Positions 1,579-24,705 of a stretch of 52,399 nt of DNA are shown here, piece by piece (within the stretch, counting starts at the first letter, position 1; every line of letters begins with the position of its first letter). This stretch comes from Richelia sp. CSU_2_1. Lineage in GTDB: Bacteria; Cyanobacteriota; Cyanobacteriia; Cyanobacteriales; Microcoleaceae. The translations under genes and the position numbers were made by a program. Under the pieces are notes generated by a model, which made no database searches, was not told the origin of the DNA, and worked only from the letters and a program-made list of their open reading frames with translations. The DNA lies in assembly GCA_012034575.1 (NCBI GenBank), contig JAAUPF010000024.1, positions 1-52,399 of the forward strand, written 5' to 3'.

Positions 1579-4356
1579 TTAACTCAACTGTTTCAGCCAG
1601 CACTCCACATCAACAGCGAGTGTTTGGCCCAATTCCAGCAACTGCCGGATTGCAGATAACTCATTGTCTGCTTGAGAATCATCTAACCCAGCAATCTGGT
1701 TAGCGAAGTCCTCGCCCTCGATCGAGCTTTCGCCCCCTCCAGCTTGCCGTTGCAGCCATCCCAAACACAAGGGCACGATTTGACTGTAGAGAGCGTCGAA
1801 ATACAGTTCCTGGGATTTGTCCAGACACAAACCCAGACCCAACTTTTCGCCCGCAGCGATCGAACGCTCGATCTTCCGAATATCGGCTTTTAAGTCGAGG
1901 GGGGAACGTTCCAGCGCGCCCGTTCCTGCTTGTAGCAGGGCATCAAGATTGCGCCAAACCAGCTTTTCCAAAATTTGCTTGACTTCAGGAACTTTCAACC
2001 GACAGCGCAGGTGTCCCGCTTCAGTTGCGATCGCCTCAATTTCCGCCAGCGATTCTCCGTCCTCAGTTTCCACATCCAGCAGCCTCGCCGCCGTCAAACA
2101 GCGGTGTCCCAAAGCCACCTCTGCCGCCACCTGCAACTCGATCGGCACCACCAACTCGTCGCGGTGGAAAGCCATCATCACCCCGTAATTTTCCCGGTAA
2201 ACCTGAGTGTAAAGCTGATCCAAGCGAGTCAAATTTTCCTGACTCAGCAACTGCACGATCCGGTGTCGTTCCTCAGCGAATAAATCCCGCAAGGTAAAGG
2301 ATCGATCGCCAAACAGCCGCACCATTTCCAGAATCGCGTGGGCTGCCGAAGCTTCTTGCAGAACATCAAACAGCCGTTCTTTGAGCATCGTGTAAGACCG
2401 GCGGCCGCCAAAGGGCTGAATCGAACAGTGGAAGTCCCAGCCGCCGAGGTAGAACGCAGCAAACACGAATACCTCTGTTTCCCGAGTAATTTCGGAGGTT
2501 AACTGCACTTGACCGACAGCCAGACTCATCGATCCCATCCGCTGGATCTGGTAATCTAGCTGCTCGGCTTGATAGCAGTAAACTCGCTGTTCGCGGGGAT
2601 ATTTGGCAAAGAGAGAACTGATGGCGTAATGGGCCGCAACTTGTCTGAGATCGATCTGGGCCGTCACTACCAGTTGGCGGTAAACTTCCGCCCCTGTTTT
2701 GAAACATTCAACATTACTCGGCGCTCGATCGAGCCTTTCGATGAACTCTTTTTCTAGCTGCACGCCGGTTACTTCCCCGGCCAATTCCAGGGCCCGGGCC
2801 GCGTAGCGCAGAATTTGCACGCCTTCTGGGCGGGAGATTTCTTCAAAAAACCAGCCGCAGCTAGTGAACATTAACAGGGCGTGACGCTGCATTTCCAGCA
2901 GGCGCAGGGCGTCCACCCGATCGGTAGCGTCGAGTTCGCGCAGTTGGTGTTTGGAGAGGAAACTGTCAACATTAGCGGTCGATCGATCGCGAATGACATC
3001 GATATATTCATCTCTGGCCAGCCAGGGATCGCGGAATAACTTGCGCCCCGCTTCTTCGTAAATCGGAATCAGCCGATCGCGCAGCCAATTGAGACTATCC
3101 CGCAGGGGGCGACGCCATTTTTGATGCCATCCGCCACCGCCGCCGCAGCCGCAGTCCTCTTGCCAGCGATCGACCCCGTGGGAGCAACTCCAGGCTGTCA
3201 CTGGTTTGAGTTCCACTTCCCACTCGCTGGGATTTTGACTCAAGTAGTGAGCAAAATTCGTCACCGTCCAGCCGCGGCGGGGAAATTCTTCGGTAAAAGC
3301 GTAGGCGAGGCATTTTTCCGTACCGCCTTTGTGGTGACCGAAAGTTTCGCCATCCGTCGCCACGGAGATTAATTGGGCCGATCGGCGGTCTCCGCGCACT
3401 GCTTGACCCAAGCGGCCCGCCAAGTGGTGGCTGCTGCTGAGAACGTCGTTGAAGCCCATATCTCGCGAGATCGGGCCGTCGTAGAAAAAGATATCGATGT
3501 AGGGAGTGTTGGGCGCTGGGGCTTGAGAATTGTAAGACGGGTGGCGGCTGAAGTGATCAGTGCTCAGCGGCGAAAGTTGGTTGGAAGCCATCAACCGTTT
3601 TTCCGGCTTCAGATAGCAGCGGTACGGGCGAGTCGGATCGATTTGACCTCCGCCGACTTCGTGCCATTCCTCATTTTCCGTCGTTTCTCCTGCTTGGTTG
3701 TGGGCGATTAGCGGGCGGCAGCGTTCGGCTTGGGAGGGGGCCAAGATGATGAAGCGGATGCCTTCTGCGACCAAAACTTCGAGGGTGGCGTAGTCTACGG
3801 CGGTTTCGGCGAGCCACATTCCTTCGGGATCGCGATTGAAGCGCGATCGAAAATCTGCGATCCCCCAGCGGATTTGGGTGTATTTATCTCGCTCGTTCGC
3901 CAGGGGCATGATGATGTGATTGTAAACTTGGGCGATCGCGTTCCCGTGGCCGTTAAGGCGCTGGCAGCTTTTGCGATCGGCCTCTAAAATTCGCTGGTAG
4001 ACTTCCGAGTCGTAGCGTTCCAGCCAGCTCATCAGCGTCGGACCGATGTTGAAGCTGAGATATTCGTAGTTGTTGGCGATCCCCACTACTTCGCCCCGAT
4101 CGTTCATGATGCGGGCAAAAGCGTTCGGGCGGTAGCATTCGCGGTTGATGCGTTCGTTCCAGTCGTGGCTGGGTTCGGCGCTAGCTTGGCGTTCGATCGC
4201 GTCCAGGTAAGGGTTTTCTCGGGGCGGTTGGTAGAAGTGGCCGTGAACTGTCACGCACACTCCTGTTGCAGCAGGCGTGCTGCTTTGAGTCCCTGGCGCT
4301 GTAACTGGCGCAGATAAAGAGAGCGGATCGGATTGAGTTTTAAAAGTTGAAACCAT
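1579..4356 (-). CDS. Glycoside hydrolase family 57 protein with DUF3536 region
   Basis: A 925-residue cytoplasmic protein, probably acting on alpha-glucans such as glycogen. GH57 motifs are visible in order: HGHFYQPPRENP (about residue 38-49, motif 1), GMWLAETAVD (near 178, carrying the candidate nucleophile Glu), FFYDGPISRDMGF (near 288) and a DGETFGHH segment (near 335). The long C-terminal half matches the DUF3536 companion region. There is a Gly/Cys-rich insert (CGCGGGGGWHQKW) near 405. A GAGGA Shine-Dalgarno lies about 10 bases before the ATG at 4356. The gene is monocistronic, with long non-coding flanks on both sides. The sequence is more GC-rich than the neighbouring TA island. Whether it is a branching enzyme, amylase or an inactive paralogue cannot be decided by eye. 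Confidence 0.88.
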   Translation of the reverse strand: MVSTFKTQSDPLSLSAPVTAPGTQSSTPAATGVCVTVHGHFYQPPRENPYLDAIERQASAEPSHDWNERINRECYRPNAFARIMNDRGEVVGIANNYEYLSFNIGPTLMSWLERYDSEVYQRILEADRKSCQRLNGHGNAIAQVYNHIIMPLANERDKYTQIRWGIADFRSRFNRDPEGMWLAETAVDYATLEVLVAEGIRFIILAPSQAERCRPLIAHNQAGETTENEEWHEVGGGQIDPTRPYRCYLKPEKRLMASNQLSPLSTDHFSRHPSYNSQAPAPNTPYIDIFFYDGPISRDMGFNDVLSSSHHLAGRLGQAVRGDRRSAQLISVATDGETFGHHKGGTEKCLAYAFTEEFPRRGWTVTNFAHYLSQNPSEWEVELKPVTAWSCSHGVDRWQEDCGCGGGGGWHQKWRRPLRDSLNWLRDRLIPIYEEAGRKLFRDPWLARDEYIDVIRDRSTANVDSFLSKHQLRELDATDRVDALRLLEMQRHALLMFTSCGWFFEEISRPEGVQILRYAARALELAGEVTGVQLEKEFIERLDRAPSNVECFKTGAEVYRQLVVTAQIDLRQVAAHYAISSLFAKYPREQRVYCYQAEQLDYQIQRMGSMSLAVGQVQLTSEITRETEVFVFAAFYLGGWDFHCSIQPFGGRRSYTMLKERLFDVLQEASAAHAILEMVRLFGDRSFTLRDLFAEERHRIVQLLSQENLTRLDQLYTQVYRENYGVMMAFHRDELVVPIELQVAAEVALGHRCLTAARLLDVETEDGESLAEIEAIATEAGHLRCRLKVPEVKQILEKLVWRNLDALLQAGTGALERSPLDLKADIRKIERSIAAGEKLGLGLCLDKSQELYFDALYSQIVPLCLGWLQRQAGGGESSIEGEDFANQIAGLDDSQADNELSAIRQLLELGQTLAVDVECWLKQLS

Positions 4357-8974: not shown

Positions 8975-10339
8975 CTATGTGCTGTCCCGTTCCAGTAAGC
9001 CAATAATTTTATCACAGTATTGAAGTATGTCTATCTTATTAGAACAAGCCAAATTTATTTGACGACAGGAAGCTTGTTTAAGACGAACTTTCTCTTCAAT
9101 CTTTTTGCCCTCATCAGATGAAAGCTCTTTTGCACGTCCGTAACCATTATTTGATAATCCCCAGATGATAGCTATACCTTTGACGGAAAGAGTTTTCATC
9201 TGCTCTTCGTCGATCTTGATAGTGACAGTATCACCATCATCGAAGAAGACGAACATACTTCCCATAGCAGCCCCTATTGTTCCTCCAATTTGCGCCCAAG
9301 TCAGCGCCCCGGGTAAAGCACCTACTCCACCTGTTAGAACTCCCATGATTGTACCTCCCAAAATGGCTCCCATGAAAGCACTAACACCTCCTATAATTGC
9401 TGCTGCCCCGCTACCGGTACCTATCCTGCCAAGATAGTTAGCTTTTGGCTGCATCAGAAGAAGTAATTCATCTTTTGAAGTTGTCGGATGCTCTGCTGCT
9501 ACTTTGTAGAGATCGGAAACACAGTAGATGAATTCAGCAAGAGAGCCATTAATCTTACGCGCTACTTGTTCTTTGGCTTCTTCAACTTTTTGCGGTTTAT
9601 TAAAATCTCCTTTTGTAATAATAACAAATGCGTCTTCCGCACAATCTTTAATGAGAGAAGCGAGCATACTGCAAGCCTCTCGTGTTATCTCTAACTGTCT
9701 TTCCTTATATCGTTTTAGCCCTTCAAGAAACTGCGAGCGCTGTTCGGGATCTAGAATTTTGACAATCTCATCGTAGATTTGACTTATTTTTGCAGGATTA
9801 TCCCAGTGAGCATCGAAAACAATGATGCTATTAACAGATTGTCCTCTGAAGAATGTATTCCATTGTTCTACCCGATTTTCGACTTCTGTTGCGCTACTTG
9901 CTCTAAGTTCCTTTTCATATTGATTGATAATAGCTACAATTTTTGAGCATTTACGCTTAATAATAGAAAGTTCTCCTTTAAAACTGTCATCCGGCACAGA
10001 GCTTAAACTTGCAACATAAAGAACTAAATTACTCTTCTCCAGTGCCTTCATTGCTTTTTCATCATAAGTAATATCATCTTTATGTTTCTGCGGCATCTTA
10101 CAGTTAGGATTTTCATCCAGCATGTCAAGGTACATCTCCATAGCAGAAGCATTTTGAAAGCCAGGTGTATCTATAAAGTTTGCTTGTATTCCGTTAAAAT
10201 AATATGCCTGTTCTCGCTGCGAAACATTTGGTGAATCTCTGACTTCTCCAACAGATGCTTTCATCAAAGTTCTGATGAGAGTTGTCTTTCCTACGTTTGT
10301 GTGACCAGCGATAGCAATATTAATTTTTTGGGTGTCCAT
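8975..10339 (-). CDS. TRAFAC-class GTPase with glycine-rich membrane-inserting segment
   Basis: A 454-residue protein resembling Era/YeeP-type GTPases with a DUF3482-like C-terminal half. Visible: G1 P-loop GHTNVGKTT (residues 12-20), a switch-I region with conserved Ser/Thr, and G3 DTPG (57-60). At the G4 position there is NQYE (139-142) in place of NKxD, so guanine specificity may be altered. A glycine-zipper hydrophobic stretch of about 60 residues (roughly 305-365; GGVSAFMGAILGGTIMG) could insert into membrane, a layout seen in dynamin-like or colicin-like effectors. No neighbour on its strand; divergent from the vMAP-NB-ARC gene. Function unknown; a conflict or stress role is inferred from context. 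Confidence 0.8.
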   Translation of the reverse strand: MDTQKINIAIAGHTNVGKTTLIRTLMKASVGEVRDSPNVSQREQAYYFNGIQANFIDTPGFQNASAMEMYLDMLDENPNCKMPQKHKDDITYDEKAMKALEKSNLVLYVASLSSVPDDSFKGELSIIKRKCSKIVAIINQYEKELRASSATEVENRVEQWNTFFRGQSVNSIIVFDAHWDNPAKISQIYDEIVKILDPEQRSQFLEGLKRYKERQLEITREACSMLASLIKDCAEDAFVIITKGDFNKPQKVEEAKEQVARKINGSLAEFIYCVSDLYKVAAEHPTTSKDELLLLMQPKANYLGRIGTGSGAAAIIGGVSAFMGAILGGTIMGVLTGGVGALPGALTWAQIGGTIGAAMGSMFVFFDDGDTVTIKIDEEQMKTLSVKGIAIIWGLSNNGYGRAKELSSDEGKKIEEKVRLKQASCRQINLACSNKIDILQYCDKIIGLLERDST

Positions 10340-10515
10340 ATTAAAATTTTAATATAATTATTGGTGAATCTAAACTATATTTACCCGATCGAGCGAAAGT
10401 TTGTCTAGTAAAAAAATGTTCGATTTTGCAGATATTTTTGCGAGAAATTTACTTTTTTATATCTTTTTGTACGAAAATGTACGAAAATGTTGGCAGACAT
10501 AAGCTATAATACATA

Positions 10516-10605
10516 AGGACTTACGCAAAAATAATTCGGTCCACTATTGCTAAGGGTAAGGTGCGCAGTGTACACCCTACGAATAGAGTGACTTCGCCAG
10601 TTCCG
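10516..10605. mobile_element. MITE-A fragment upstream of the vMAP-NB-ARC gene
   Basis: It begins with AGGACTTACGC (the MITE-A terminal repeat) and carries a decayed core (AAGGTGCGCAGTGTACACC). The right end is degraded. It separates a candidate -10 box TATAAT (10505-10510) from the gene starting at 10635. A direct repeat TGTACGAAAA occurs twice at 10469-10489. Confidence 0.6.
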
Positions 10606-10634
10606 TATATAAAACCTCTCATTTCCCTGACCAG

Positions 10635-12005
10635 ATGAATCTTAAAGCAGTGTTAAACCTCGTGGATGAGATAGTATTTGCTAAAACGGGTCAGCATCTT
10701 GACGATTTGCAGGAAGCTGTACTGCGGGGAACTCTACAACGCGAGACATACAAAGAAATAGCGAAAGACTTTGATTGTTCTGAAAGTCGCATCAGGGAAA
10801 TTGGATCGGAATTATGGCGGATACTTTCAGAAGAATTAGGGGAAGATGTCAGTAAAACAAATTTTCGATCGGCAATGGAGAGATTCCAACTCTCCCTATT
10901 TTCAAATGTTGTACAAGATTATGTCGGAGCTGGTAGCATTAACATCTGTGGAGAAGGTAGACACCCGCCAGATATACCACACTCACCTAATGGAGAAACA
11001 TCCAATTCAAAACCAACTAAAATATCGCATCAAGATTTAAGCGAAATGCCGGAGTTGGGTAATTTCTTCGATCTCACCCCGCAACTCGACACCCTCACCA
11101 CCTGGATTCTACAACAACACTGCCGCCTCATCACCCTCACCGGCATGAGCGGCATCGGCAAAACATCCCTAGCAATCCAACTCGTACAGCAAATAAGACA
11201 CGAATTTGAATGCGTTATCTGGTGCAACATCGACGCATCCTGCACCCCAGATGAATTTGAACATAAACTAATCCAGTTTTTCTCCGAATCAGAAAAGCTA
11301 GATTCCCCCGCAACTAAGCCGAAACGCTTACCTCTAATTAAATATTTACAACAATATCGCAATTTAATCATCTTAGATGACCTGCAAAATATTTTCTGTA
11401 GCGGCGAATTGGCAGGTAAATACAAACCCGGCTGCGAAGAATATCGCTTCCTATTCAAACAAATAGAAACATTCTCCCATCAAACCTGCTTTCTGTTAAT
11501 CGGTTGGGAACAACCTAGAGAAGTTCCTCAACTCGCCGACGAAAATACTTCCATTCGCACCTTACAACTGGGTGGTTTAGACACCGCAGCCGCACGGGAA
11601 ATCCTGAAAAATAAAGGATTAGCAGAAACTGACAACTGGGATACTCTCATTCACCGCTATCAAGGCAACCCGTTATGGTTAAAAAGCATTGCAACTCTGA
11701 TTCTTGAGTTGGGAATTGGCGTTACTGAGTTATTACAAGATGATATTATATTGTTACCTGAAGATTTGAAAGATGTTTTACAACAGCAGTTCGATCGCGC
11801 TTCCGAAATAGAAAAACAAGTTCTCTCATTATTAGCAAAAGAAAGCGAAGCAGTCAACTTAGCAAAATTGCTCCAAAACGGACAAATACCACCATCAGAT
11901 TTAGTAAATGCACTCCAATCTTTATCGCGGCGATGCTGGATCGAAAAACAGGAAAGTCTTTACACTCTCCCACCTGTATTGAAGCAGTATATCAAAGGGT
12001 TGTGA
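10635..12005 (+). CDS. vMAP N-terminal HTH plus NB-ARC (STAND) ATPase
   Basis: A 456-residue signal-transduction NTPase. The first ~85 residues match the vMAP-N helix-turn-helix domain common in cyanobacteria (LQEAVLRGTLQRETYKEIAK, then CSESRIREIGSELWRILSE). A low-complexity linker (90-140) follows, then an NB-ARC core: Walker A GMSGIGKTSL (170-179), Walker B NLIILDDL (243-250), a GNPLWLKSIA segment equivalent to the GLPL motif (near 345), and a winged-helix-like end. The usual C-terminal sensor repeats (WD40, TPR or pentapeptide) are absent. The stop codon sits 1 bp before a MITE-B element, so the gene may have been truncated or may be a naturally short form. Confidence 0.85.
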   Translation: MNLKAVLNLVDEIVFAKTGQHLDDLQEAVLRGTLQRETYKEIAKDFDCSESRIREIGSELWRILSEELGEDVSKTNFRSAMERFQLSLFSNVVQDYVGAGSINICGEGRHPPDIPHSPNGETSNSKPTKISHQDLSEMPELGNFFDLTPQLDTLTTWILQQHCRLITLTGMSGIGKTSLAIQLVQQIRHEFECVIWCNIDASCTPDEFEHKLIQFFSESEKLDSPATKPKRLPLIKYLQQYRNLIILDDLQNIFCSGELAGKYKPGCEEYRFLFKQIETFSHQTCFLLIGWEQPREVPQLADENTSIRTLQLGGLDTAAAREILKNKGLAETDNWDTLIHRYQGNPLWLKSIATLILELGIGVTELLQDDIILLPEDLKDVLQQQFDRASEIEKQVLSLLAKESEAVNLAKLLQNGQIPPSDLVNALQSLSRRCWIEKQESLYTLPPVLKQYIKGL

Positions 12006-12137
12006 CTAACATTTTGCACCAATGCGATCGGGGGATTTTTCGTGGGGGAGGGCGGGTTTATTTAACCTGTCTGCTACCTTTAATGTCTTGGGCGAACCCG
12101 CCCCTACAGGTTTATTGACAGGAGTGCAAGATATTAA
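12006..12137. mobile_element. MITE-B, copy 1
   Basis: Ends CTAACATTTTGCACC (12006-12020) and AGTGCAAGATATTAA (12123-12137) are imperfect inverted repeats. The core has a GGCGGGTTTATTTAACCTG arm and a GAACCCGCCCCTACAGG arm that can fold back. It is the same element as 14265-14398, 15974-16116 and 50582-50718. It starts directly after the stop of the NB-ARC gene. Confidence 0.75.
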
Positions 12138-12289
12138 TCGACCTTAATAAATAAAGTTTGTAGTGTAGACTTAATTCCGCTCCGAATTAGGTGTTTCGTA
12201 AGTCTTGCGATCGAGCGTTGTTGCAAACAAACCCAGTCTCAAGTGAGTACATATTATATGCTAATAGCCGATCGCACCACAACACCCTC

Positions 12290-13231
12290 TTAACGCCAAT
12301 CATCCAATACAAAAACATCCGATCGACTGTAACCGCAATCGTTTGGCCTGTGCATTGCAACACCCGTAATTTCTGTCCGAAAATCCCGATCGAGCATTCT
12401 CAGATATGCTGCATTGCGACTCGTATTTATTCCCGCCCTCAGATGCAACATTTTTTGACTCGCCCCAAATGCTTCACACAGATCTAATAACTGCTCGAAC
12501 CTTTCGCCTGCACCTGTTCCCAGCCTCACCGCTCCAAATTTGACATAGCATACATCGCTGCCCGCTTCGCTACCCGCACCGCAATGACACACAGCAAATC
12601 CTGCTAAGCCTTTGTCATCCCACAACAATAAAGTATCGCCTAAATTTTGAATATTAACTGCTATAATTTCCCGCGATAAATCCAGCCCTTCATAAATAGA
12701 ATCAGTCAGTTGGTAACACTCTTTCAGACAGCTCGATCGCTCTTCTGGATTCAGTTCGGAATATTTGATTATCGGAAAATCTCGTTCAACAAAATCAATT
12801 GATTTTAACATCATGAAAGTCAGAAAACGCGGGTAGAATCCGAACTTTTGATAAAGCCCGTGGTGTTTCGGGCTGTTCGCAAAAGTAAATAAACCCGCCT
12901 GTCGCGTTTCCCATTCAGAAAAACGGTCGATCGTGCTTTCAATCAAACATTTAGCAATCCCTTGATCCCAAAAGCTAGGATGAACGCTCAGAGGTCCAAA
13001 AGAACCGACACTTCCCCAACAAATTGCTATATTCGAGCCAACTAACTTGCCATCAACTTCTGCTGCAAAAGCCCCTGTAGGATAGATGCGCGATCGAGTT
13101 TTAATGTAGTTTGCATCACTGCAAAAATCTGTAGGTTCCGGCAAGTTAATAAAAGTACCGAAAGCCAGTCGAAAAATATGCTCTGCCATCGGTAATTCAT
13201 CTTCGCGAAGCAGTCGGATAGAAATTTTCAT
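12290..13231 (-). CDS. GNAT family N-acetyltransferase
   Basis: A 313-residue protein with an N-terminal GNAT domain: MKISIRLLREDELPMAEHIF at the start, then GSFGPLSVHPSFWDQGIAKCLIE, which holds the acetyl-CoA pyrophosphate-binding V-x-P-x2-x2-G-I/G-x pattern, and HGLYQKFGFYPR, the closing motif. The C-terminal ~150 residues look like a degenerate second GNAT-like half. The open frame extends to 13318, but ATG 13231 overlaps the VOC stop as TAATG and begins at the domain, so it is chosen. Transcribed with VOC and probably the ABM gene. Substrate unknown. Confidence 0.85.
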   Translation of the reverse strand: MKISIRLLREDELPMAEHIFRLAFGTFINLPEPTDFCSDANYIKTRSRIYPTGAFAAEVDGKLVGSNIAICWGSVGSFGPLSVHPSFWDQGIAKCLIESTIDRFSEWETRQAGLFTFANSPKHHGLYQKFGFYPRFLTFMMLKSIDFVERDFPIIKYSELNPEERSSCLKECYQLTDSIYEGLDLSREIIAVNIQNLGDTLLLWDDKGLAGFAVCHCGAGSEAGSDVCYVKFGAVRLGTGAGERFEQLLDLCEAFGASQKMLHLRAGINTSRNAAYLRMLDRDFRTEITGVAMHRPNDCGYSRSDVFVLDDWR

Positions 13232-15973: not shown

Positions 15974-16116
15974 ACCTAACATCTTGCAGCAATGTCAGGG
16001 GGTTATTTGGGGATTATTTGTGGGGTGGGGGCGGGTTTATTTAACCTGTCTGCTTCGTTTTTGGTCTTTGGCGAACCCGCCCCTACAGGATTATTGAAAG
16101 GCGTGGCAGATATCAA
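15974..16116. mobile_element. MITE-B, copy 3
   Basis: Left end CCTAACATCTTGCAGC (15974-15989) and right end GGCGTGGCAGATATCAA (16100-16116), with the conserved GGGCGGGTTTATTTAACCTG and GAACCCGCCCCTACAGG arms between them. It lies between the P450 gene and the 3' end of the coiled-coil cluster. Confidence 0.75.
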
Positions 16117-16148: not shown

Positions 16149-17246
16149 TTACTTATTTTTTTGCTGAGTTTTCGCTTGTTCGATCGCGATTTCCTTAACT
16201 GCTTGGAAAGAACTCAAATTCGACGCACCTTCAATCGCTTTCACTGCCAAATCTTGAACTTGTTTCAAAGCAGCATCTAATTGCTTCGACAAACTCGCAA
16301 TCCGCGATTCCTGATTTTGAATTGTCTGCAACATTCCTTGAATTTGCAATTCGTAATTTTGCTTTTGTCCTTCAATATCTTTCGCCAACAAATCTGCCTT
16401 GACTTTAGCTTGATAGAAACCGATATTGCGGCCGTTATCTTTGCCATTTTTGATATTAGCCTCCAATTCTTTTGGATGGGATTCTACTTTCGCTTTCACC
16501 TCAGCATACAGTTTTTCGCGATCGGCAATTGATTTTTCGCGATCGGTCCATTGTTTCTCTTGTTCCTGCTGAAATTCTTCGATTTCTTTGTACAGCGTTT
16601 TCTGGCGTTGGTCGTATTCTTCAATGTCAAGATTGCGCTGCAAGTGCAAATCGTAGTTGTAAGTTTCTTCATCCCGCTGGCGAGTTTTTTGCAAGTTTTC
16701 GTTGCGTTCTTTGACAGCTAATTTTTGCTGTTCCTGTTCTTTTTCCCAAGTTTGTCGCAGTTCCAGCAATTCCTGTTCGACAGTTTCGCGCCGATCGCTG
16801 AGTTCGTTAGTAAATGTTTTGGCGCTTGATTCGTACTGTTCGATTAAATTGTCCAGCGTATCTTCTTCAACATTTTCTAAAGCGTGCAATTCTTGCAATT
16901 GCTGGACTTCTTCGCCGACAGTGCGCTGCAAGTCTTCCAGTTTAGAAGCTTCGGAAGTTAGCTTTTCAGAAAGTTCGCTGACTGCACCGCCAAAGCTGAA
17001 TTGTAGCAAGATTAAATTGTCGATCGTAGACTGCATTTTTTGTTTGTTTTGAATTGCATTCATCGGTTTCTTTGCCTCCACGGTAACTTTTTCTTGGACA
17101 GTTGTTGATTGTTGCAAAGCATTTGCCGGTGGATTGCTGCTAAGCTGCTTCAGTTGCGATTCCAAAGCAGCCTTTTCTTTCGCAGCTTCCTTGTATGCTT
17201 CCAAAATTTCAGCCTTGGTGTTTTTGTCGCTAACTCTTTTGTTCAT
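16149..17246 (-). CDS. Coiled-coil-rich protein A (paralogue of 17508-18485)
   Basis: A 365-residue, almost entirely helical protein with long heptad-rich, Gln/Glu/Lys-rich segments (roughly residues 60-330) and no signal peptide or membrane segment. The segment VSELSEKLTSEASKLEDLQR aligns with the corresponding stretch of the neighbouring 325-residue protein, as do the WEKEQ, YNYDLHLQR and AKVKADL-x-AK-x3-G blocks and the C-terminal QVQDLAVKAIE. The two are therefore diverged tandem duplicates. Such coiled-coil-rich proteins in cyanobacteria can form filaments. A pair of adjacent paralogues in Anabaena (Alr4504/Alr4505, ZicK/ZacK) is a possible parallel, untested here. Last gene of the minus-strand cluster; AGGTGA Shine-Dalgarno before the ATG. 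Confidence 0.75.
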   Translation of the reverse strand: MNKRVSDKNTKAEILEAYKEAAKEKAALESQLKQLSSNPPANALQQSTTVQEKVTVEAKKPMNAIQNKQKMQSTIDNLILLQFSFGGAVSELSEKLTSEASKLEDLQRTVGEEVQQLQELHALENVEEDTLDNLIEQYESSAKTFTNELSDRRETVEQELLELRQTWEKEQEQQKLAVKERNENLQKTRQRDEETYNYDLHLQRNLDIEEYDQRQKTLYKEIEEFQQEQEKQWTDREKSIADREKLYAEVKAKVESHPKELEANIKNGKDNGRNIGFYQAKVKADLLAKDIEGQKQNYELQIQGMLQTIQNQESRIASLSKQLDAALKQVQDLAVKAIEGASNLSSFQAVKEIAIEQAKTQQKNK

Positions 17247-17294
17247 GACTTTTCACCTGTTAATATTTGAGAAAAATTGGTTTTTTTTCGTAAG

Positions 17295-17460
17295 GCGCGC
17301 GTTGCGCGCCTACTTCTTAGTCGGCGGAGGCCGACTTCGTTCGTGTAGTTGCGGTTTCAACCGCCGAACTTATTGTTTTTCGCAACGCGCGCGTTGCGCG
17401 CCTACTTCTTAGTCGGCGGAGGCCGACTTTGTTCGTGTAGTTGCGGTTTCAACCGCCGAA
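17295..17460. repeat. Two 74-bp direct repeats, each with three hairpins
   Basis: Copies at 17295-17368 and 17387-17460 (period 92) differ by about one base. Each holds a GCGCGCGTTGCGCGC palindrome, an AGTCGGC-GGA-GGCCGACT hairpin and a GCGGTTTCAACCGC palindrome. It lies between the two coiled-coil genes and could attenuate transcription or stabilise the upstream mRNA. Confidence 0.85.
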
Positions 17461-17507
17461 TGATTCCACCGAATGATTCCGCCGAATAATTAATGAAGTC
17501 CGAAGTT

Positions 17508-18485
17508 TTAAGCTTTAGTAGCAAAAGCCTTCATTGCCAAATCTTGCGCTTGTTTCATCGTGGCTTGCAATTGTGCAGAGATTTCAGCAATTTGTTCGGT
17601 TTGACGCTCGATCGTCTGCTGCAAAGATTGGATTTTCAACTCATATCCTTGCTTGCTTCCTTCCCATTCTTTCTCAGCTAAATCTGCCTTCACTTTAGCT
17701 TCGCGGGAAACTTCTTGAATCGCTTCTTCTTTGGCTTTAATGTAAGCCTGTTTCAATTCTTCTTCAAAGCCGGCGGCTTTCTTTTGATTTTCTTCAAACT
17801 GAGTTCGATCGTCGTTAAGAACCTTCTCCCGTTCCGCCCATTTCTTCTCTTTTTCGCGGGTAGAAAGTTGCAGTTCCCGTTCGAGTTTGCGCTTCGTTTC
17901 TTCGTATTCGTCAGTTTCGATTTTGCGGGTGCGCTGCAATTCGTATTGATAATCGGCTGCTTCCCGCTGGCGTTCTTTAGTTGTGAATGCGGTTTTGTCG
18001 GCGGCTTGAGTGTCAAATTCTTGCTGTTCTTTTTCCCAGATTTTGCGTTTTTGGGAAGTGTCTTTTTCGATAATTTCGCGCTGGTTGGCGCTGTTTTGTT
18101 CGAGAAGGGTTAATTTTTCTCGGTGTTCTTGAGTTAAGATGTGGAGGGCGTCGGCTACAACTCGGATTTTTTGTAACTCTTGTAACTGCTGGGTTTCAAT
18201 GTCGATCGCCCGTTTTAATTCGTCTAATTTTGAGGATTCGGAACTCAGTTTTTCGGAAAGTCCGCTGATGACAGTACCGAAATCTAACTGCAAATCGGCA
18301 AGGCCTTTAACGATGCTATCGATCGTGTAGGTGGAAGCGACTTCGAGGAGTTGTTTGTTCTTAGCTTTTTCAGCTTCTTGTTCTTTCGTTTCGACCTTGG
18401 ATTCAATCTGTTTGTTTTCAGCTAAAATTTGCTGGAAGTTTTGCAAGATTTTGGCTTTGCTATCTTTAGCAGTTGCTAGTGTCAT
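17508..18485 (-). CDS. Coiled-coil-rich protein B (paralogue of 16149-17246)
   Basis: A 325-residue coiled-coil protein. The N-terminal ~50 residues are Lys/Glu-rich. A conserved block TVISGLSEKLSSESSKLDEL (near 92-111) precedes heptad-rich helices through residue 310, ending QAQDLAMKAFATKA, much like the end of its paralogue. No catalytic motif, signal peptide or membrane span. A GGGAG Shine-Dalgarno precedes ATG 18485. Downstream (minus sense) are the hairpin repeats and paralogue A; upstream is the cysteine-motif protein, so the genes read in one direction. Structural (filament, scaffold) rather than enzymatic function is inferred from composition. Confidence 0.75.
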   Translation of the reverse strand: MTLATAKDSKAKILQNFQQILAENKQIESKVETKEQEAEKAKNKQLLEVASTYTIDSIVKGLADLQLDFGTVISGLSEKLSSESSKLDELKRAIDIETQQLQELQKIRVVADALHILTQEHREKLTLLEQNSANQREIIEKDTSQKRKIWEKEQQEFDTQAADKTAFTTKERQREAADYQYELQRTRKIETDEYEETKRKLERELQLSTREKEKKWAEREKVLNDDRTQFEENQKKAAGFEEELKQAYIKAKEEAIQEVSREAKVKADLAEKEWEGSKQGYELKIQSLQQTIERQTEQIAEISAQLQATMKQAQDLAMKAFATKA

Positions 18486-18597
18486 AATCTTTGCTCCCGA
18501 TTGTTGTTACTTTTTGAGATGTTTTGTGACGATTTCAGTTTCAGTTATCAACCTCGCTCTTAACTGTTAACAGTCAACTTTTCCTGTTTTAAAAACC

Positions 18598-18627
18598 GGG
18601 CGGGCACGGGGGCACCGCCCCTACAAA
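18598..18627. repeat. GGGCGGGCACGGGGGCACCGCCC dispersed repeat
   Basis: A GC-rich imperfect palindrome followed by CTACAAA. The same sequence occurs inside the fructosamine kinase gene at 36760-36789, so it is a dispersed repeat rather than a terminator specific to this cluster, although here it sits just downstream of the 122-residue gene. Confidence 0.7.
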
Positions 18628-18642
18628 TCAACTCTCAACTCT

Positions 18643-19011
18643 TTATCCCAGTTTGCGGAGTTGGGTGAGGAGGGATTTGTATTTTTTGGCAGCATCCGGT
18701 TTGAGATCGATATTTTTACCTCCGAGAATGTTGAGGATTTGTACGCAGCGATCGCACCGATTTCCTTGCCAGCAGTCGCAATTTTCAACTACGCCCAATA
18801 GCGTATCTTTCAGCAGTTGATTTTGCGCTAACAAAGCTCGGTAATTCCGCTGTACTGATTCGACAACTAAACTCATATGTTTGAAGTCGGATGTCAGAAC
18901 TTCGAGGTCGTTAATTGAGTCCGATCGAATCAGGGCGATCGATTCTAAATTCTCTTTCACTCGGCTTTCTGGCAGGTTGGATTTCGGTTGAATTTTGGTT
19001 ACTTTCTTCAT
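18643..19011 (-). CDS. Small helical protein with CDC-x6-C-x2-C motif
   Basis: A 122-residue protein of unknown function. The N-terminal third is basic, the middle is helical (VESVQRNYRALLAQNQLLKD), then comes a cysteine cluster NCDCWQGNRCDRC (about residues 83-95) that could bind zinc, then a Lys-rich helical tail. It lies between the DUF5895-like gene and coiled-coil B on the same strand, so it is probably a component or adaptor of the cluster. A MITE-B copy abuts its 5' end (start codon at 19009-19011), which may have altered its promoter or N-terminus. Confidence 0.65.
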   Translation of the reverse strand: MKKVTKIQPKSNLPESRVKENLESIALIRSDSINDLEVLTSDFKHMSLVVESVQRNYRALLAQNQLLKDTLLGVVENCDCWQGNRCDRCVQILNILGGKNIDLKPDAAKKYKSLLTQLRKLG

Positions 19012-19016
19012 GTTGC

Positions 19017-19127
19017 CCTGGAGGTTATTTGTGGGGAAGGGCGGGCTTATTTAACCTGTTTGTCACCCGATGGACTGTTGGTGAACCCGCCCCTACAGGT
19101 TATTGAAAATGCTGCAAGATGTCAGTT
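19017..19127. mobile_element. MITE-B, copy 4 (5' end degraded)
   Basis: The right end GCTGCAAGATGTCAGTT (19111-19127) and the paired GGGCGGGCTTATTTAACCTG / GAACCCGCCCCTACAGG arms are clear. The left terminal repeat has been lost where it meets the 122-residue gene. Confidence 0.65.
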
Positions 19128-19188
19128 ACAACCAAGGATTTTCGTCCATCAAACCCTGTTTCTGACGTAATTTTTGGTTATTTTAAAG

Positions 19189-19206
19189 GCGCGATTCGAT
19201 CGCGCC
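19189..19206 (-). terminator. Palindrome downstream of the DUF5895-like gene
   Basis: GGCGCGATTCGATCGCGCC lies 13 bp beyond the stop of the 235-residue gene, preceded on the plus strand by ATTTTAAA and followed by TTTTCATC. On the minus strand it is followed by TTTAAAAT, a weak U-run. Plausible intrinsic terminator. Confidence 0.45.
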
Positions 19207-19218
19207 TTTTCATCGGAA

Positions 19219-19926
19219 TTAGAACAAGTCAGCAGTCGCCCTGTCTTCCGCAGATGGCAGAGACATATTGCCGTTAGCAGTAGCAGGCAAAGTCAAAGTC
19301 TCGCTGTCACTGCTAGAATGAACGGCCATCAAGCAAGAAACTTCCTGAGGGGAAAGATTGTCCAAACACACCATTTGCCGCGTTCCTTCCAAATCAATCA
19401 TGCGAGATAGATTGCTCGAATCGGACAAAACTGCTGCTGCTTGGTCGATAACTCCCCAATCGCTGCGCTCGTTCCAAGACCATTTCAACGAGTAGTAATT
19501 AATTGGTTTTACTACACCGCTGTCATCTGGTTTTTGCCCGCTATGTTTTACAAATTCCGGTACAAAAATGCCAGTTGCAGGTTCGACACCGCGCGATTGA
19601 ACCGAAGCAACCAAACGGTTAAAATCGTTCAAACTGCGGTTTTTAATGTATGTCACCATGACCACACCTTGAGGCAATTCGCCTGTTTCGGCAACAAACC
19701 AAAGTTGTCCCCACAAAGTGTTAGAAGTTTGACCCAAACTGCCAAAAAACTTGGAAAATTTGAGAATCGTCATGGAACATTTAGAACCGTAATCCGCATC
19801 TCCGATCGCCCATTGCCCCGACTGGCAATTGTTGCGCACTGAAATCGGAATTTCTGGTACTAATAAAGCATTACTTGGTTTGGCTCCAAATACTGTAAAT
19901 GTAGGTCTTTCTTGTGTTTTAGTCAT
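19219..19926 (-). CDS. DUF5895-like protein of the coiled-coil cluster
   Basis: A 235-residue soluble protein. From memory it resembles the cyanobacterial DUF5895 family; I cannot verify this. Visible: a proline/beta-rich N-terminus (PTFTVFGAKPSNALLVPEIP), a central aromatic segment (NTLWGQLWFVAETGELPQGVVMVTY), the stretch SLKWSWNERSDWGVIDQAA and an acidic, low-complexity C-terminus ending RATADLF. An acidic tail tipped with aromatic residues recalls single-strand-binding proteins, which is only a suggestion. AAGGAAG precedes the ATG. The 3' flank carries a GCGCGATTCGATCGCGCC palindrome at 19189-19206, a possible terminator. Confidence 0.6.
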   Translation of the reverse strand: MTKTQERPTFTVFGAKPSNALLVPEIPISVRNNCQSGQWAIGDADYGSKCSMTILKFSKFFGSLGQTSNTLWGQLWFVAETGELPQGVVMVTYIKNRSLNDFNRLVASVQSRGVEPATGIFVPEFVKHSGQKPDDSGVVKPINYYSLKWSWNERSDWGVIDQAAAVLSDSSNLSRMIDLEGTRQMVCLDNLSPQEVSCLMAVHSSSDSETLTLPATANGNMSLPSAEDRATADLF

Positions 19927-20014
19927 TGTTCTTTCTTCCTTGGTTCTTGCTTAATTTCCGGGTAATTAGTAATCTCTAATCCGAAAAAACTGTCAACTGT
20001 CAACTATCAACTGT

Positions 20015-20293
20015 TTACCGAATTAGATGTTTTGCCGTTTGTTTTGCACCTTTTGATTCTGGATATGCGTACTCGAGCATCGCCTCTTGTTGTGCTTGAA
20101 TAATTCGCAGCGCGCCCAACAAATGCTCTAACATTTCGATGTGCGCCGGCGTGAAATGAATGCTGAAGCCTTCGCCATCCCGCGCGTAGCCGGGACAAAC
20201 AAGTGAGGCCGAGCTTTGTTCTTCGTGAGTGGCAATGTATAACCAGTCATCGTCTTCGAGCTTGTAATGCGTGTCTGTCCAGGTTCTGAGCAT
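20015..20293 (-). CDS. Small protein heading the coiled-coil cluster
   Basis: A 92-residue protein with no recognised domain. It has an aromatic/acidic N-terminus (TWTDTHYKLEDDDWLYIATHEE), a central CPGYARDGEGFSIHFTPAH, and an amphipathic C-terminal helix. The frame is open to a TTG at 20326, but ATG 20293 has an AGGAGGAA Shine-Dalgarno 11 bases upstream and is preferred. First gene of the minus-strand cluster and nearest to the divergent XRE gene, so its expression may be under the same operators. Confidence 0.6.
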   Translation of the reverse strand: MLRTWTDTHYKLEDDDWLYIATHEEQSSASLVCPGYARDGEGFSIHFTPAHIEMLEHLLGALRIIQAQQEAMLEYAYPESKGAKQTAKHLIR

Positions 20294-20431
20294 GGCCGAT
20301 GGTTCCTCCTTTTTTGCTGCTTTCAAGCGTTTTTACGGCTCGCGGTTCTCGCTCCTCTCTCAAGTAACCGCCTAGATATAGCGTGTTGGCTCGGCTTTAA
20401 CGCACGCTCAACCCTACCAATACAGTTAAGC

Positions 20432-20453
20432 TAGTTGACTAATCCATCAACTA
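20432..20453. promoter_or_regulatory. Operator-like dyad 1, TAGTTGA-N8-TCAACTA
   Basis: A perfect 7-bp inverted repeat with an 8-base centre, in the 250-bp gap between the divergent XRE gene and the coiled-coil cluster. First of three sites with the same GTTGA-N8-TCAA geometry. Confidence 0.6.
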
Positions 20454-20469
20454 AACTCATGGTAGCGCG

Positions 20470-20489
20470 AGTTGATTTTCCCGTCAAGT
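20470..20489. promoter_or_regulatory. Operator-like dyad 2, AGTTGA-N8-TCAAGT
   Basis: Same geometry as dyad 1, with one mismatch in the second arm. Centre is 37 bp from dyad 1. Confidence 0.55.
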
Positions 20490-20493
20490 ATTT

Positions 20494-20513
20494 TGTTGAA
20501 CTTTTCATCAAAA
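20494..20513. promoter_or_regulatory. Operator-like dyad 3 over the -35 box, TGTTGA-N8-TCAAAA
   Basis: Third copy of the GTTGA-N8-TCAA pattern; it overlaps the -35 hexamer of the XRE promoter, so binding here should repress. Confidence 0.5.
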
Positions 20514-20524
20514 CAGGCTAGAAT
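20496..20524 (+). promoter_or_regulatory. Promoter of the XRE-ImmA operon
   Basis: TTGAAC (20496-20501), 17-base spacer, TAGAAT (20519-20524): a near-consensus sigma-70 promoter. AGGAGG (20531-20536) follows, nine bases before the GTG start at 20546, leaving a very short leader. Confidence 0.65.
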
Positions 20525-20545
20525 GCTTGCAGGAGGCGAAAAACC

Positions 20546-20869
20546 GTGGAACAAACATTTGGAAAACTCATCCGTCAAGCCCGCAAGGACAAAGGCTACT
20601 CACAAAGAGAGCTGGCAGCTATACTAGGTGTGGATTTTACCTACTTGTCGAAGCTGGAGAACGATCGGGCAGATTACGCGCCAAAAGAGGACGTAATCCG
20701 CGCATTAGCGCGCAATTTGGACTTAAACGAGGAAGAACTAATTTTCCTTGCCGGGAGGCTGCCGCAGCAGTACGAAGCATTGCTGAAGCAAAATCCGAAG
20801 GAAATGCAGGCTCTTTTCCGCCGGATGCAAGAAAATCCCGATTGGCTGAAACAGTCTTTTGAAGCGTAA
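20546..20869 (+). CDS. XRE family transcriptional regulator
   Basis: A 107-residue phage-repressor-type regulator. The HTH covers residues 7-60: GKLIRQARKDKGYSQRELAA, then GVDFTYLSKLEND as the recognition region, and KEDVIRALARNLDL. It starts at GTG with AGGAGG. Upstream are three GTTGA-N8-TCAA dyads, one on its own promoter, so autorepression is likely. It is followed 15 bp later by an ImmA/IrrE-type peptidase gene, which in other systems (ICEBs1 ImmR-ImmA, DdrO-IrrE) cleaves the XRE repressor. The divergent coiled-coil cluster is a likely regulated target. Confidence 0.9.
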   Translation: MEQTFGKLIRQARKDKGYSQRELAAILGVDFTYLSKLENDRADYAPKEDVIRALARNLDLNEEELIFLAGRLPQQYEALLKQNPKEMQALFRRMQENPDWLKQSFEA

Positions 20870-20884
20870 GAGAGGCCTGTCAAA

Positions 20885-21573
20885 GTGAGTATCTTTAAAC
20901 CGTATTGCTTCTATCCCAAAGAAACGATCGAGCGCCTAGCAAATGACATTTTAATGCAGATGCAAAAGACGCAAAATTTTGCTCCAAATGGCCTTTTGAA
21001 GCAACAACTGTTGCCGATTTTCTAGATTTAGGAGTAGTTTGGGACTGCATCGAACCCGACGAAGAAGGTGCGATCGCGGCGAGGATTTTGCCGCAGCAGC
21101 GGTTAATTGAAATCAACGAATTAATTTTGGAAAAACCGCCCGGATTCGTTGAATCGACGATCGCGCACGAAATCGGACACTGGGTATTGCACGTCAATCA
21201 AGACGAAGCAGACGGTACAACTCAACAGTTGGAATTAAACCTAGGAAATTTTGGCAAAACAGCGTCTGATGTCGAGGAACCGTTTGTATGTCGGGGTGCG
21301 AGTGCCGATACTAAAATTGCATCGATCGAATGGCAAGCGCAATATTTTGCAAGCTGTTTGTTGATGCCACGCTGCGTTTTGGAGGAAAAAAGAAAGGGCA
21401 GAGATTTAACTAAATGGTCGAATTTGTACAAACTTCGCGATGAAATGGGAGTGAGTATTTCCAATTTAACTAACCGCTTGCAAGAGTTCGATTGGATTTA
21501 CATTCCTAAAGGAACGCGCGAGATTTATCCGGGGAAAGATGCGGCCAACGGACAGCAGCGGTTGTTCGGTTGA
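20885..21573 (+). pseudogene. ImmA/IrrE-type metallopeptidase, frameshifted as assembled
   Basis: Zinc peptidase expected to cleave the adjacent XRE repressor. It starts at GTG 20885 with AGAGAGG upstream. The first frame gives SIFKPYCFYPKETIERLAND and breaks near 20986-20988; one more A in that A3 run restores APKWPFEATTVADFLDLGVVWD and joins the second frame. The active site HEIGHW and the downstream E-x2-AQYFASCLLMP segment (third ligand region) are intact in the second frame, followed by a C-terminal domain ending GQQRLFG. Restored length is about 229 residues. All key residues are conserved, so a sequencing error or a very recent lesion is likely. Confidence 0.82.
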
Positions 21574-21657: not shown

Positions 21658-22008
21658 ATGGAAAGCAAACGAGTCGCCGATTTGACAGTTGAAGAATTGC
21701 GATGGATCCTTCTCGAAACAAAACCGGTATCGGAATTGACTGTTGGAGAATTGAAAGCAATAATTGCAGAAGTAGTAGATATGCGGTTGACTTATTGGCT
21801 AAACGCAGCGAACAAACAAACATCTGCCGCGCTTCCCAAAATAACTCAGGAAGAACAAATGCAGAGAAATCTAGAAATAGTAGAATGGCTAGATAAATGG
21901 GCAGAAGAAGGAGATGAAGAAGAACAACGCGAAACTTTTGAATACCTGCAAAAAGCCTTAAATGAAGACCGCCTCTCATCGCAGCGACTTTTATTTCAAA
22001 CACAATGA
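21658..22008 (+). CDS. Putative antitoxin of a PIN-domain module
   Basis: A 116-residue acidic protein, upstream partner of a PIN toxin with ATGA overlap (22005-22008). A tandem motif is seen: VADLTVEELRWIL and VSELTVGELKAII, then an acidic helical C-terminus (EWLDKWAEEGDEEEQRETFE). I do not recognise a DNA-binding fold. The open frame extends to 21595, but ATG 21658 has a perfect CAGGAGG nine bases upstream, so it is the start. Role inferred from coupling. Confidence 0.75.
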   Translation: MESKRVADLTVEELRWILLETKPVSELTVGELKAIIAEVVDMRLTYWLNAANKQTSAALPKITQEEQMQRNLEIVEWLDKWAEEGDEEEQRETFEYLQKALNEDRLSSQRLLFQTQ

Positions 22009-22451
22009 TAGTATTATTAGATTCTGGACCTTTGGGAATATTGACAAATCCTAAAGGGTCGGCGGTTACGGTGGAATGTCGGATGTGGGTGCGTTCTTTG
22101 TTGCTGAAAGGCTACAAAATAAAATTACCTGAGATAGCTGATTATGAGGTGCGACGAGAATTGCTTCGTGCTAAGAAACTAGCAGGCGTTAAACGGCTTG
22201 ATGACTGGAAGCAAAGACTGGAATATTTGCCGATAACAACGCCAGTGATTCTCAAGGCGGCTGAGTTGTGGGCCCAATCCCGTCAGGCAGGAATGCCAAC
22301 AGCAGATCCTAAAGAACTTGATGGAGATGTAATTTTAGCGGCTCAAGCTTTGCTGGAAGGTGAATCTGGAGAAGAAGTTGTCATTGCTACAACCAATGTC
22401 GGGCATTTATCCAGATTCATAGATGCTCGCAAGTGGCAAAATATAGAATAA
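22005..22451 (+). CDS. PIN-domain nuclease, VapC-like toxin
   Basis: A 148-residue PIN protein. The first acidic residue is D6 (VLLDSGPLG), the second the Glu of YEVRREL (about 49), the third in ELDGDVILAAQA, and the C-terminal strand IATTNVGHLSRFIDARKW is typical of this cyanobacterial PIN subfamily. Coupled by 4-base overlap to the acidic protein upstream. Expected to be a Mg-dependent RNase. A MITE-A core palindrome lies 27 bp after the stop. Confidence 0.85.
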   Translation: MIVLLDSGPLGILTNPKGSAVTVECRMWVRSLLLKGYKIKLPEIADYEVRRELLRAKKLAGVKRLDDWKQRLEYLPITTPVILKAAELWAQSRQAGMPTADPKELDGDVILAAQALLEGESGEEVVIATTNVGHLSRFIDARKWQNIE

Positions 22452-23431: not shown

Positions 23432-24705
23432 TCAACAAAACTCCAGAAATCGCGCGTGCCACAGTTTGCCACTTTCCGTAAAACCCTGCGATCGCACTTT
23501 GATTTTAACCCCTCCCGGATTGGCTTCATGAAGTCGCGCAATTTCCTGCATTTCTTCAAGGCTAAAACCCGTTCCTACCGTTCCTAAAGGCACTAATTTA
23601 CCGTCAATTTCTTGTGCAACTTCGATCGCGCTAAACGGCCTCCCCGCAACTTTTGTCGGCGTCAATCCTGCAATGAAAACATCTAATTCCTGAGAATATT
23701 TAGTTCTCACCATCGGATATTTTTCACATCTTTACCGCCAACATAGCGGCATTCATGCAAAATCCAAACTTCTCCTTCTCTAGCTTCTGCTTCCTGCTGT
23801 TGTGCCAGTAAAAGTTTTTCAGCAGCAGTGCGAAATGTCGGTAAAATTTCAAATTCAGGAGATAAACTTACCAGCATTTCCCCGACTGTAACTCCAGCCT
23901 CAATTCGTTCGGATTCAGCAAGTTGAGTTAGGTCTTTTCCTTGAAAAAACAAACATTTAAAAATGGCATAAACTGCTTGGGGTTGCACGGTGGGCAAGCC
24001 GCTTTCTATATTAACTGTAGCAGCTTGGGAACCCGTGCGGTGTTCGCTACCCGTACAGCTTTTGTAATACAATTCGCCGTCTAAAACAAAAGTACCGATT
24101 TTAGCCGCTGTTTCCATTAAAGCCCGATCGATCTCAATTGATGCTTGCTGTCGCAGGTTAGTCGATCGCGATTGATAGTATACTTTATCTTGAGTGGCGA
24201 TCGCAACTACTCGATTGCCGTCGCGTTTCGGCTGCCCCCAATAATCGGGGTTTTCGATGTAATAAGTACGATCGCTGGGGGCATCAACCGGCTGCATGGT
24301 AACGATTCTTCCCGGCTGCAAGTGAGGTGGAAGTTCGGGAATATTTGGATTTTCGGCAGTGTTTTTTTTGGTGCGAGAAGTTGCTTTTTTTGGAGCGATA
24401 TTTGCGGTAGAATTTTCTGGAAGATTGAGATCGATCGGCTGTTCTCCTATTTCTAATTCAAAGGCTTTTTTCCAAAAGCCGATCGCCATTTCCGGGTATC
24501 CTTCCGACTCCGCACAAAGTGCAAAACCGATAACTTTTGCCGTACCGATGCCGCGTCCGTAATCGGCTAAATACTGCACAGCACCCGCTTCGCCCATCAA
24601 GTGCAATCCCCGCTGAACTATGCGGTTATTCCAGCGTTCTCGAATGTCGGAACTAATTTTTTTAGCTGCTTTTCTCTTGGCTTCTACATATTCGGTTAAG
24701 TCCAT
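23432..24705 (-). pseudogene. ATP-dependent DNA ligase-like protein, split by frameshift
   Basis: Nucleotidyltransferase plus OB-fold ligase split into two frames, 24705-23707 (332 residues) and 23713-23432 (93 residues). In the first: adenylation motif I K-x-D-G as QPKRDGNR, motif III VLDGELYY, motif IV EGEVWILHECRYVGGKD. In the second: motif V-like VRTKYSQELDVFIAG and the OB fold IEVAQEIDGKLVPLG. They overlap by 7 bases. Adding one base at the GG at 23715-23716 fuses them as KNIPMVRTKY, giving about 424 residues. The first ~100 residues are a separate helical domain of unknown role. Probably one gene in life. Partner in repair unknown; no Ku gene nearby. Confidence 0.78.

Follow-up and report, generated by a model that had tools for sequence, protein, structure and literature searches.

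What do five neighbouring genes without a recognized protein family do, and by what are they switched? The question is raised by a cyanobacterial contig of 52,399 nucleotides (Richelia sp. CSU_2_1, JAAUPF010000024.1), referred to over its full length as the window, in which five co-oriented open reading frames (ORFs) on the minus strand, A–E, are faced by divergent plus-strand genes for an XRE-family repressor and an ImmA/IrrE metallopeptidase. A preliminary description of this DNA had placed these genes correctly and had taken them for an undescribed system. In a profile search, no Pfam or NCBIfam family scored over its cut-off for A–E. We consider it likely that the cluster is a LexA-independent regulon responding to DNA damage, and to radiation in particular, that is switched by the XRE–ImmA pair. 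There is good evidence, from gene order and protein lengths, that it is the arh cluster, already known under that name; what is new here are its control sites, their targets in trans and the likely biochemistry of the products.

Identity of the cluster

The five minus-strand genes E (20015–20293, 92 aa), D (19219–19926, 235 aa), C (18643–19011, 122 aa), B (17508–18485, 325 aa) and A (16149–17246, 365 aa) match arhA, arhB, arhC, arhD and arhE, respectively, in the naming of 2021, B being the ArhC of the 2015 naming. The XRE gene on the plus strand (20546–20869, 107 aa), which encodes a helix–turn–helix (HTH) protein (HTH_3, E-value 6.6e-14), matches arhR.

A published radiation response comes with these names. 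In Arthrospira PCC 8005 an XRE-containing cluster showed strong gamma induction of RNA and three of its proteins were up, the ArhB RNA not being significant at 3200 Gy (PMC4398503, Table 4 for the cluster). The arh genes were among the top-ranked and were still high through recovery (PMC4550399), and under chronic gamma irradiation five genes, then renamed arhA–E, were up 8–30-fold, the divergently oriented arhR being 'very likely' their regulator (PMC8400943). The authors of these reports found no function for the genes, and the organism is reported to be without LexA (PMC4398503, PMC4550399, PMC8400943). The strong gamma induction in print for Limnospira (PMC4398503, PMC8400943) agrees with the DNA-damage response at which the preliminary description had guessed.

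The correspondence extends to the lengths of proteins and alignments. The published identities for ArhB and ArhC, 47.84, 48.46 and 49.38% and 95.12, 94.82 and 94.21% (PMC4398503), are whole numbers of residues, namely 155, 157 and 160 over 324 and 312, 311 and 309 over 328. The B protein of two Limnospira-like single-contig genomes is 328 aa long, their A protein being 362–363 aa, and seven of nine Nostocales-type B proteins align to the 328-aa B over 324 columns. One Limnospira-like genome also yields the numerators 155, 157 and 160; the argument is borne by the lengths and the denominators, since the comparators range from 155 to 169 and a match in single numerators is therefore weak.

Putative operators at the E, XRE and B promoters

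Three dyads had been described between E and the XRE gene, and they are indeed present within 20434–20512: the pattern GTTGA-N8-TCAAC, with at most one mismatch, has three copies (at 20434, 20471 and 20495) and no others in the 52 kb of the window. Operator 1 (20434–20451), a perfect palindrome, closely follows the predicted −10 box of the E promoter. Operator 2 (20471–20488) holds the predicted −35 box of the same promoter (TTGACG, minus strand), the −10 box of which, TACCAT, lies at 20464–20459. Operator 3 (20495–20512) overlaps the predicted −35 box of the XRE promoter (TTGAAC, 20496), with a −10 box, TAGAAT, that ends at 20524. Boxes such as those of TTGACG-17-TACCAT (E) and of TTGAAC-17-TAGAAT beneath operator 3 (XRE) are, taken alone, no commoner in the window than in shuffles. 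The number of dyads is by itself ordinary (1.8 expected), and their count was rejected as stand-alone evidence because 30 of 100 shuffles reach at least three; their clustering is unusual, three within 252 bp being found in none of 300 Markov sequences. In this arrangement the dyads look like operators, with the layout of a repressor-controlled promoter.

In relatives, the same sites occupy the gap that separates XRE from E or from B, and they also precede B genes that are distant from XRE. Of the 148 genomes of the order, 38 have a strict double operator and 3 match a reversed-pattern control. The double operator occupies 47 places, a number in which G037 and G060 are each represented by overlapping double hits at a single locus. 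Of these places, 46 are no more than 400 bp from XRE and/or B (22 near XRE alone, 10 near B alone and 14 near both), the place in G035 being near neither. Apart from G035, the strict pattern is thus confined to the XRE and B loci and is not found at recA, although, as it describes double sites only, single-site targets would escape it. The pattern picked out a second site in each of G104, G121 and G127 and one site in G126, and the XRE search then found an adjoining XRE gene at each.

Scoring of the B promoters strengthens the link. A scored pair stands at B in 40 of the 47 genomes with an XRE protein of at least 59% identity and in none of the 31 without, the random rate of such a score being 0.03%; the 59% cut was chosen after the identities were known, and with any XRE match at an E-value of 1e-15 or below the counts become 40 of 54 and 0 of 24. 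The 78 B promoters scored come from the 97 genomes with B, the others being 15 operon-type genomes and G016, G100, G107 and G108. In 16 of the 40 genomes the pair stands at B while the XRE gene is elsewhere, which implies control in trans. In five of them (G020, G069, G086, G103 and G121) the XRE gene is on the contig of B, 144 kb to 3.4 Mb away, and in the remaining eleven the two genes are on different contigs, an observation that carries less weight for distance where the assembly is fragmented.

Together, 117 promoters (78 of B and 39 of E) were examined for operators at a spacing of 30–44, and a scored pair was found in 80 (41 of B and 39 of E, some of the E rows possibly being one species from two collections). 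All 80 share one design, in which the gene-distal operator contains TTGA, TAnnnT follows 16–18 bp downstream of the hexamer and the second operator comes next. Our confidence in the conserved paired sites and in their link to XRE and B is high, and the earlier proposal that the XRE–ImmA switch governs the operon fits them well. The pattern of conservation suggests ArhR as the protein that would bind these putative sites.

Conservation and gene arrangement

A relative of B is present in 97 of the 148 genomes, usually with A as the second match; D is found in 30, some of its relatives being distant, and XRE in 57 of the 61 genomes of family f1. Three layouts recur in the named genomes. In the first, XRE–ImmA is divergent from E-D-C-B-A (Microcoleus, Tychonema, Planktothrix, Okeania and others); in the second, XRE, accompanied by a detected ImmA in some cases only, is divergent from B or B-A (Prochloron, Hydrococcus, Crocosphaera, Geitlerinema and others); and in the third, B-A occurs without XRE (Anabaena, Calothrix, Rivularia and others). 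In family f20, XRE–ImmA is divergent from E-D-C, E-D or E-C, and B-A is found at another place. The distances of B correlate with those of XRE, A, D, E and C (r of 0.82–0.97, n of 22–48; best hits covering at least 75%, stops written as X), a correlation to which the species tree contributes. For the sets of relative proteins, sequences with internal stops, incomplete ends or less than 70% of the length were dropped, as were duplicates.

The genes are thus kept together next to XRE–ImmA in many genomes, and the pair is not found with unrelated neighbours only, although a close XRE–ImmA also occurs in certain genomes that have it without A–E. Genome G126 (L165:1850–4999) carries XRE–ImmA with a double operator, no nearby match to A–E and an adjoining ORF of 1049 aa, which we take to resemble plasmid primase/helicase proteins.

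The XRE–ImmA pair

Both genes of the pair announced by the preliminary description are there, but the peptidase gene (20886–21573, plus strand), the product of which is a CapP-like M78 metallopeptidase with an HEIGH motif, is not intact in this assembly, its frame being broken once between 20886 and 21088. A scan of 26 relatives for the single pattern HE[IL]GH gave an ORF with the motif in 22 (21 of 206–247 aa and one of 172 aa) and no match in L087, L090, L094 and L109; in the closest relative, L083, the ORF is 229 aa long. The intact L083 peptidase matches the capP model with an E-value of 7e-16, the RmrA models being weaker, and the XRE protein matches capH with an E-value of 2e-11. A palindrome of the radiation/desiccation response motif (RDRM) has no match in the window at up to two mismatches.

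In published work, CapP is activated by single-stranded DNA (ssDNA) and cleaves CapH (PMC13373217, PMC10904395), and ssDNA likewise activates PprI. With the capP match, these precedents make ssDNA-triggered cleavage of ArhR the natural inference, and by analogy we hold a mechanism of this kind, with ImmA as the protease, with moderate confidence.

CapH and CapP control CBASS (cyclic-oligonucleotide-based antiphage signalling system) and other immune operons (PMC13373217), which raises the alternative of an anti-phage defence operon, in which A–E act on invading DNA and induction by radiation is a by-product of ssDNA sensing. Such a reading would draw on that precedent, on the peptidase match to capP and that of XRE to capH, among other HTH models, and on the relatives of D in viral contigs and on plasmids described below. 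It seems unlikely, as A–E have no PADLOC match and no toxic or nuclease family over cut-off, and as the correlated distances and the presence of B in almost two thirds of the genomes are unlike patchy defence islands.

The coiled-coil pair B-A

The paralogy claimed for the coiled-coil proteins A and B is borne out by their alignment over the full length (hhalign probability 100%, 332 columns, 33% identity). A matches phrog_29668 over residues 4–343 (E-value 2.1e-20), and this profile, which represents one phage family, matches both B and A over their full length; none of the matches of B in viral contigs could be confirmed. Bacillus phage G gp268 was rejected as a relative of A (27%, E-value 9e-9), as coiled-coil bias may explain the match. 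Between B and A lie two direct repeats of 88 bp that are 95% alike (17281–17460).

No part of the module is more widely distributed than the tandem, which occurs in 11 of the 13 genomes of an Anabaena-type genus and stands alone in Nostocales-type genomes. B-A probably belongs, by analogy, to the family of ZicK and ZacK (Alr4504 and Alr4505), a parallel raised in the preliminary description and still plausible. The Anabaena proteins are described as interdependent heteropolymers that could stabilize the trichome (PMC7766704), and a similar function for B and A is proposed here with low to moderate confidence. In Nostoc PCC 7120 exposed to β-N-methylamino-L-alanine (BMAA), Alr4504 was up 4.35-fold and Alr4505 20-fold, and they are described as NtcA-regulated (PMC8147232); RecA rises together with Alr4505 in related experiments (PMC7354497).

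The module might therefore be one for the trichome or cell shape, of the ZicK/ZacK kind, that responds to radiation incidentally and to which C, D and E are accessory rather than DNA-binding. The wide and often solitary occurrence of B-A and the published role of the ZicK/ZacK heteropolymers (PMC7766704) would suit such a module. The strong radiation induction and the ssDNA-type fold matches of the genes upstream do not, and we regard it as quite improbable. B, mostly with A, moreover faces XRE in L092, L103–L105 and L108, which are presumably unicellular genomes.

The C, D and E proteins

C has the cysteine motif that had been noted, a possible metal site, with a different spacing: C-x-C-x5-C-x2-C instead of CDC-x6-C-x2-C. 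Its four cysteines are invariant in all 42 aligned relatives.

The model of E, with four strands and a helix, has a predicted local distance difference test (pLDDT) score of 74, and the nearest fold is that of Borrelia Pur-alpha (probability 0.99, E-value 0.03), with PC4, MoSub1, Whirly and phage T5 PC4 also listed. For D, with a pLDDT of 85.7, the Foldseek matches in the PDB are mostly oligonucleotide/oligosaccharide-binding (OB) folds of single-stranded DNA-binding (SSB) proteins, at a probability of about 0.1–0.6 and low template-modelling (TM) scores. A search of the PDB by sequence gave no match for either protein at an E-value of 10 or below. With low to moderate confidence, based on the models, E is predicted to be a PC4/Pur-alpha/Whirly-like and D an OB/SSB-like ssDNA-binding protein. 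The suggestion of a purely structural assembly of all five proteins does not sit well with these fold matches, weak as they are.

The earlier assignment of D as DUF5895-like fails at the level of sequence: Pfam PF19247 matches none of 32 aligned D members, the profile–profile probability is 0.4%, and in the four of 12 genomes or records that contain PF19247 it is found at loci other than D. Among the viral folds of BFVD, D matches 25 proteins at an E-value of 0.001 or below (best 8.6e-7), mostly unnamed or uncharacterized.

Relatives of D, 59–78% identical, occur in ten IMG/VR contigs, which may hold host DNA, and also on plasmids; A, B, C and E are not in these ten contigs, and D has no match in the INPHARED phage set. 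In three viral contigs, of which 20 proteins were scanned, its neighbours include replication initiation proteins, a DnaB helicase, a weak RusA-like match and methyltransferases. The genome of the window has a second D gene (L167:5328–6026, G000 contig 292) in a phage-like stretch with matches to a DNA methyltransferase, a DHH phosphoesterase and a repressor. From the viral relatives and the phage-like context, D appears to be a protein for the replication or recombination of phages that was adopted by the regulon. In three relatives, a group II intron (Rfam RF00029) splits D at the same place, near codon 39 (L083:3390–5813, L062:3379–5806 and L070:220–2643); by eye, the long ORF within the L083 intron resembles a maturase/reverse transcriptase. 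D is split at the same codon in G109.

XRE–ImmA pairs are typical of integrative and conjugative elements and of phages, and the locus could accordingly be the immunity switch, of the ImmR/ImmA type, of an integrated mobile element with A–E as cargo. The D paralogue on a phage-like contig, the introns inside D and the unrelated 1049-aa ORF adjoining XRE–ImmA in G126 would all be at home in such an element. Among the ORFs of the cluster, to which the annotation was confined, no integrase or conjugation gene was seen; the arrangement recurs across families, and the promoters of B genes distant from XRE carry the sites. An explanation of this kind is very improbable indeed.

Proposed mechanism and its weighing

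The radiation regulon that we favour builds on the gene set, its co-conservation, the paired sites over promoter-like boxes and the recurrence of these sites at B in trans. ArhR would bind the two palindromes that bracket the −35 and −10 boxes of the promoter of E-D-C-B-A and, in genomes with B-A at another place, would bind likewise at the B-A promoter; in the window, the third palindrome would add control over the predicted promoter of XRE itself. Upon DNA damage the ImmA/IrrE protease would become active, probably through ssDNA as in CapP and PprI, and would cleave ArhR, so that the operon is induced. The products would comprise two predicted ssDNA-binding proteins, E (PC4/Pur-like) and D (OB-like and shared with phages), the small cysteine-motif protein C and the coiled-coil pair B and A, which probably form heteropolymers like ZicK and ZacK of Anabaena and would organize or protect damaged chromosomes.

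A bolder version, which we put forward tentatively and as somewhat less than an even chance, is that many Cyanobacteriales possess a LexA-free switch in which ssDNA-activated ImmA destroys ArhR and thereby releases, in cis and in trans, ssDNA-binding proteins and a paired coiled-coil polymer by which damaged chromosomes are compacted or held, and that the ZicK/ZacK polymer of the Nostocales trichome descends from it but has been freed from the regulon.

A number of observations weigh against the proposed regulon. There is no scored pair at B in seven of the 47 genomes that carry a close XRE (G039, G047, G024, G028, G050, G006 and G115; the operator spacing in G047 is 31 bp), and a close XRE is also present in some genomes that have no B. 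As to the identity with arh, the numerators of B have the spread given above and the published identities are unassigned between ArhB and ArhC (PMC4398503). ImmA and PprI are absent from the main texts of PMC4398503, PMC4550399 and PMC8400943, where IrrE/DdrO appears only as Deinococcus background, in PMC4550399, and recA was not induced in Arthrospira (PMC4398503). On the side of the switch, the peptidase frame is broken in the window and the peptidase matches RmrA models as well; its best PDB sequence match is CapP, at an E-value of 0.055 that is not significant, and it has no match to a GAF-like C-terminal domain, only M78 and a sub-cut-off SprT-like match being found in L083 and L250. The resemblance of XRE to capH is generic, since many HTH models match and HTH_VI does so slightly better. 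Finally, the fold matches are weak, with best E-values of 0.03 for E and 0.017 for D and low TM-scores, and the PDB fold search gave nothing at an E-value of 0.001 or below for either protein; its top row for D is a green fluorescent protein (GFP)/Bax entry. A DUF5895-named iridescent virus protein stands in row 20 for D in BFVD (E-value 4.8e-4, TM-scores 0.29/0.21), and according to the models D may have a remote fold link to that family.

In an edible cyanobacterium that tolerates radiation, the arh genes rank with those most strongly induced by gamma rays. With a candidate protease, an operator and targets in trans, they become a testable switch, and they are tied to a protein family that is likely to form filaments. 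If the proposal is true, DNA-damage switches made of a protease and a repressor extend beyond Deinococcus and immune operons.

Genomic surroundings

The window is contig 367 of a 7.27 Mb draft assembly, 86% complete and with 6.6% contamination. Its nearest named relative, L083, with a B protein that is 95% identical, is recorded as an Oscillatoriaceae metagenome-assembled genome (MAG); the close relatives include many Microcoleus as well as Tychonema, Lyngbya and Oscillatoriales MAGs. A cytochrome P450 ORF (14501–15891) begins at position 89 of its profile, the start of which is missing, and a DNA ligase-like gene (23432–24705) is spread over two overlapping ORFs. These two genes and the broken ImmA frame make indel errors in the draft a fair guess.

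Right after ImmA, at 21661–22451, an ORF of 115 aa overlaps by four bases one of 148 aa that matches PIN slightly under the Pfam cut-off; the two resemble a VapBC-type toxin–antitoxin pair, which is also present in L063 and L083. A dispersed repeat is found downstream of A (16008–16102) and between C and D (19019–19112). In the Microcoleus MAG L062, an array of 22 tRNA genes (9668–12833) lies directly downstream of A; the other 56 loci of the same scan are without a tRNA gene.

Comparison with known systems

The closest likeness is to the arh cluster of Limnospira indica/Arthrospira PCC 8005, in which arhR is divergent from arhABCDE as XRE is from E-D-C-B-A, in the same order. The 2015 list differs in also containing a PstS-like gene, and none was seen, by eye, beside A among the ORFs of L250. 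ZicK and ZacK of Anabaena PCC 7120 are, like B-A, tandem coiled-coil paralogues, whereas the Nostocales-type genomes examined are without a close XRE and without the paired sites.

With CapH–CapP the locus shares an HTH repressor with an adjoining M78 peptidase (HExxH) beside an operon, and profile matches to both proteins; A–E, in contrast, constitute no recognized immune system. PprI/IrrE–DdrO of Deinococcus likewise combines a metalloprotease with an XRE repressor in a radiation response without LexA. It differs in that the peptidase studied here is without a GAF match and the window without an RDRM-like site, and in that the strict double site is found at the XRE and B loci and not at recA.

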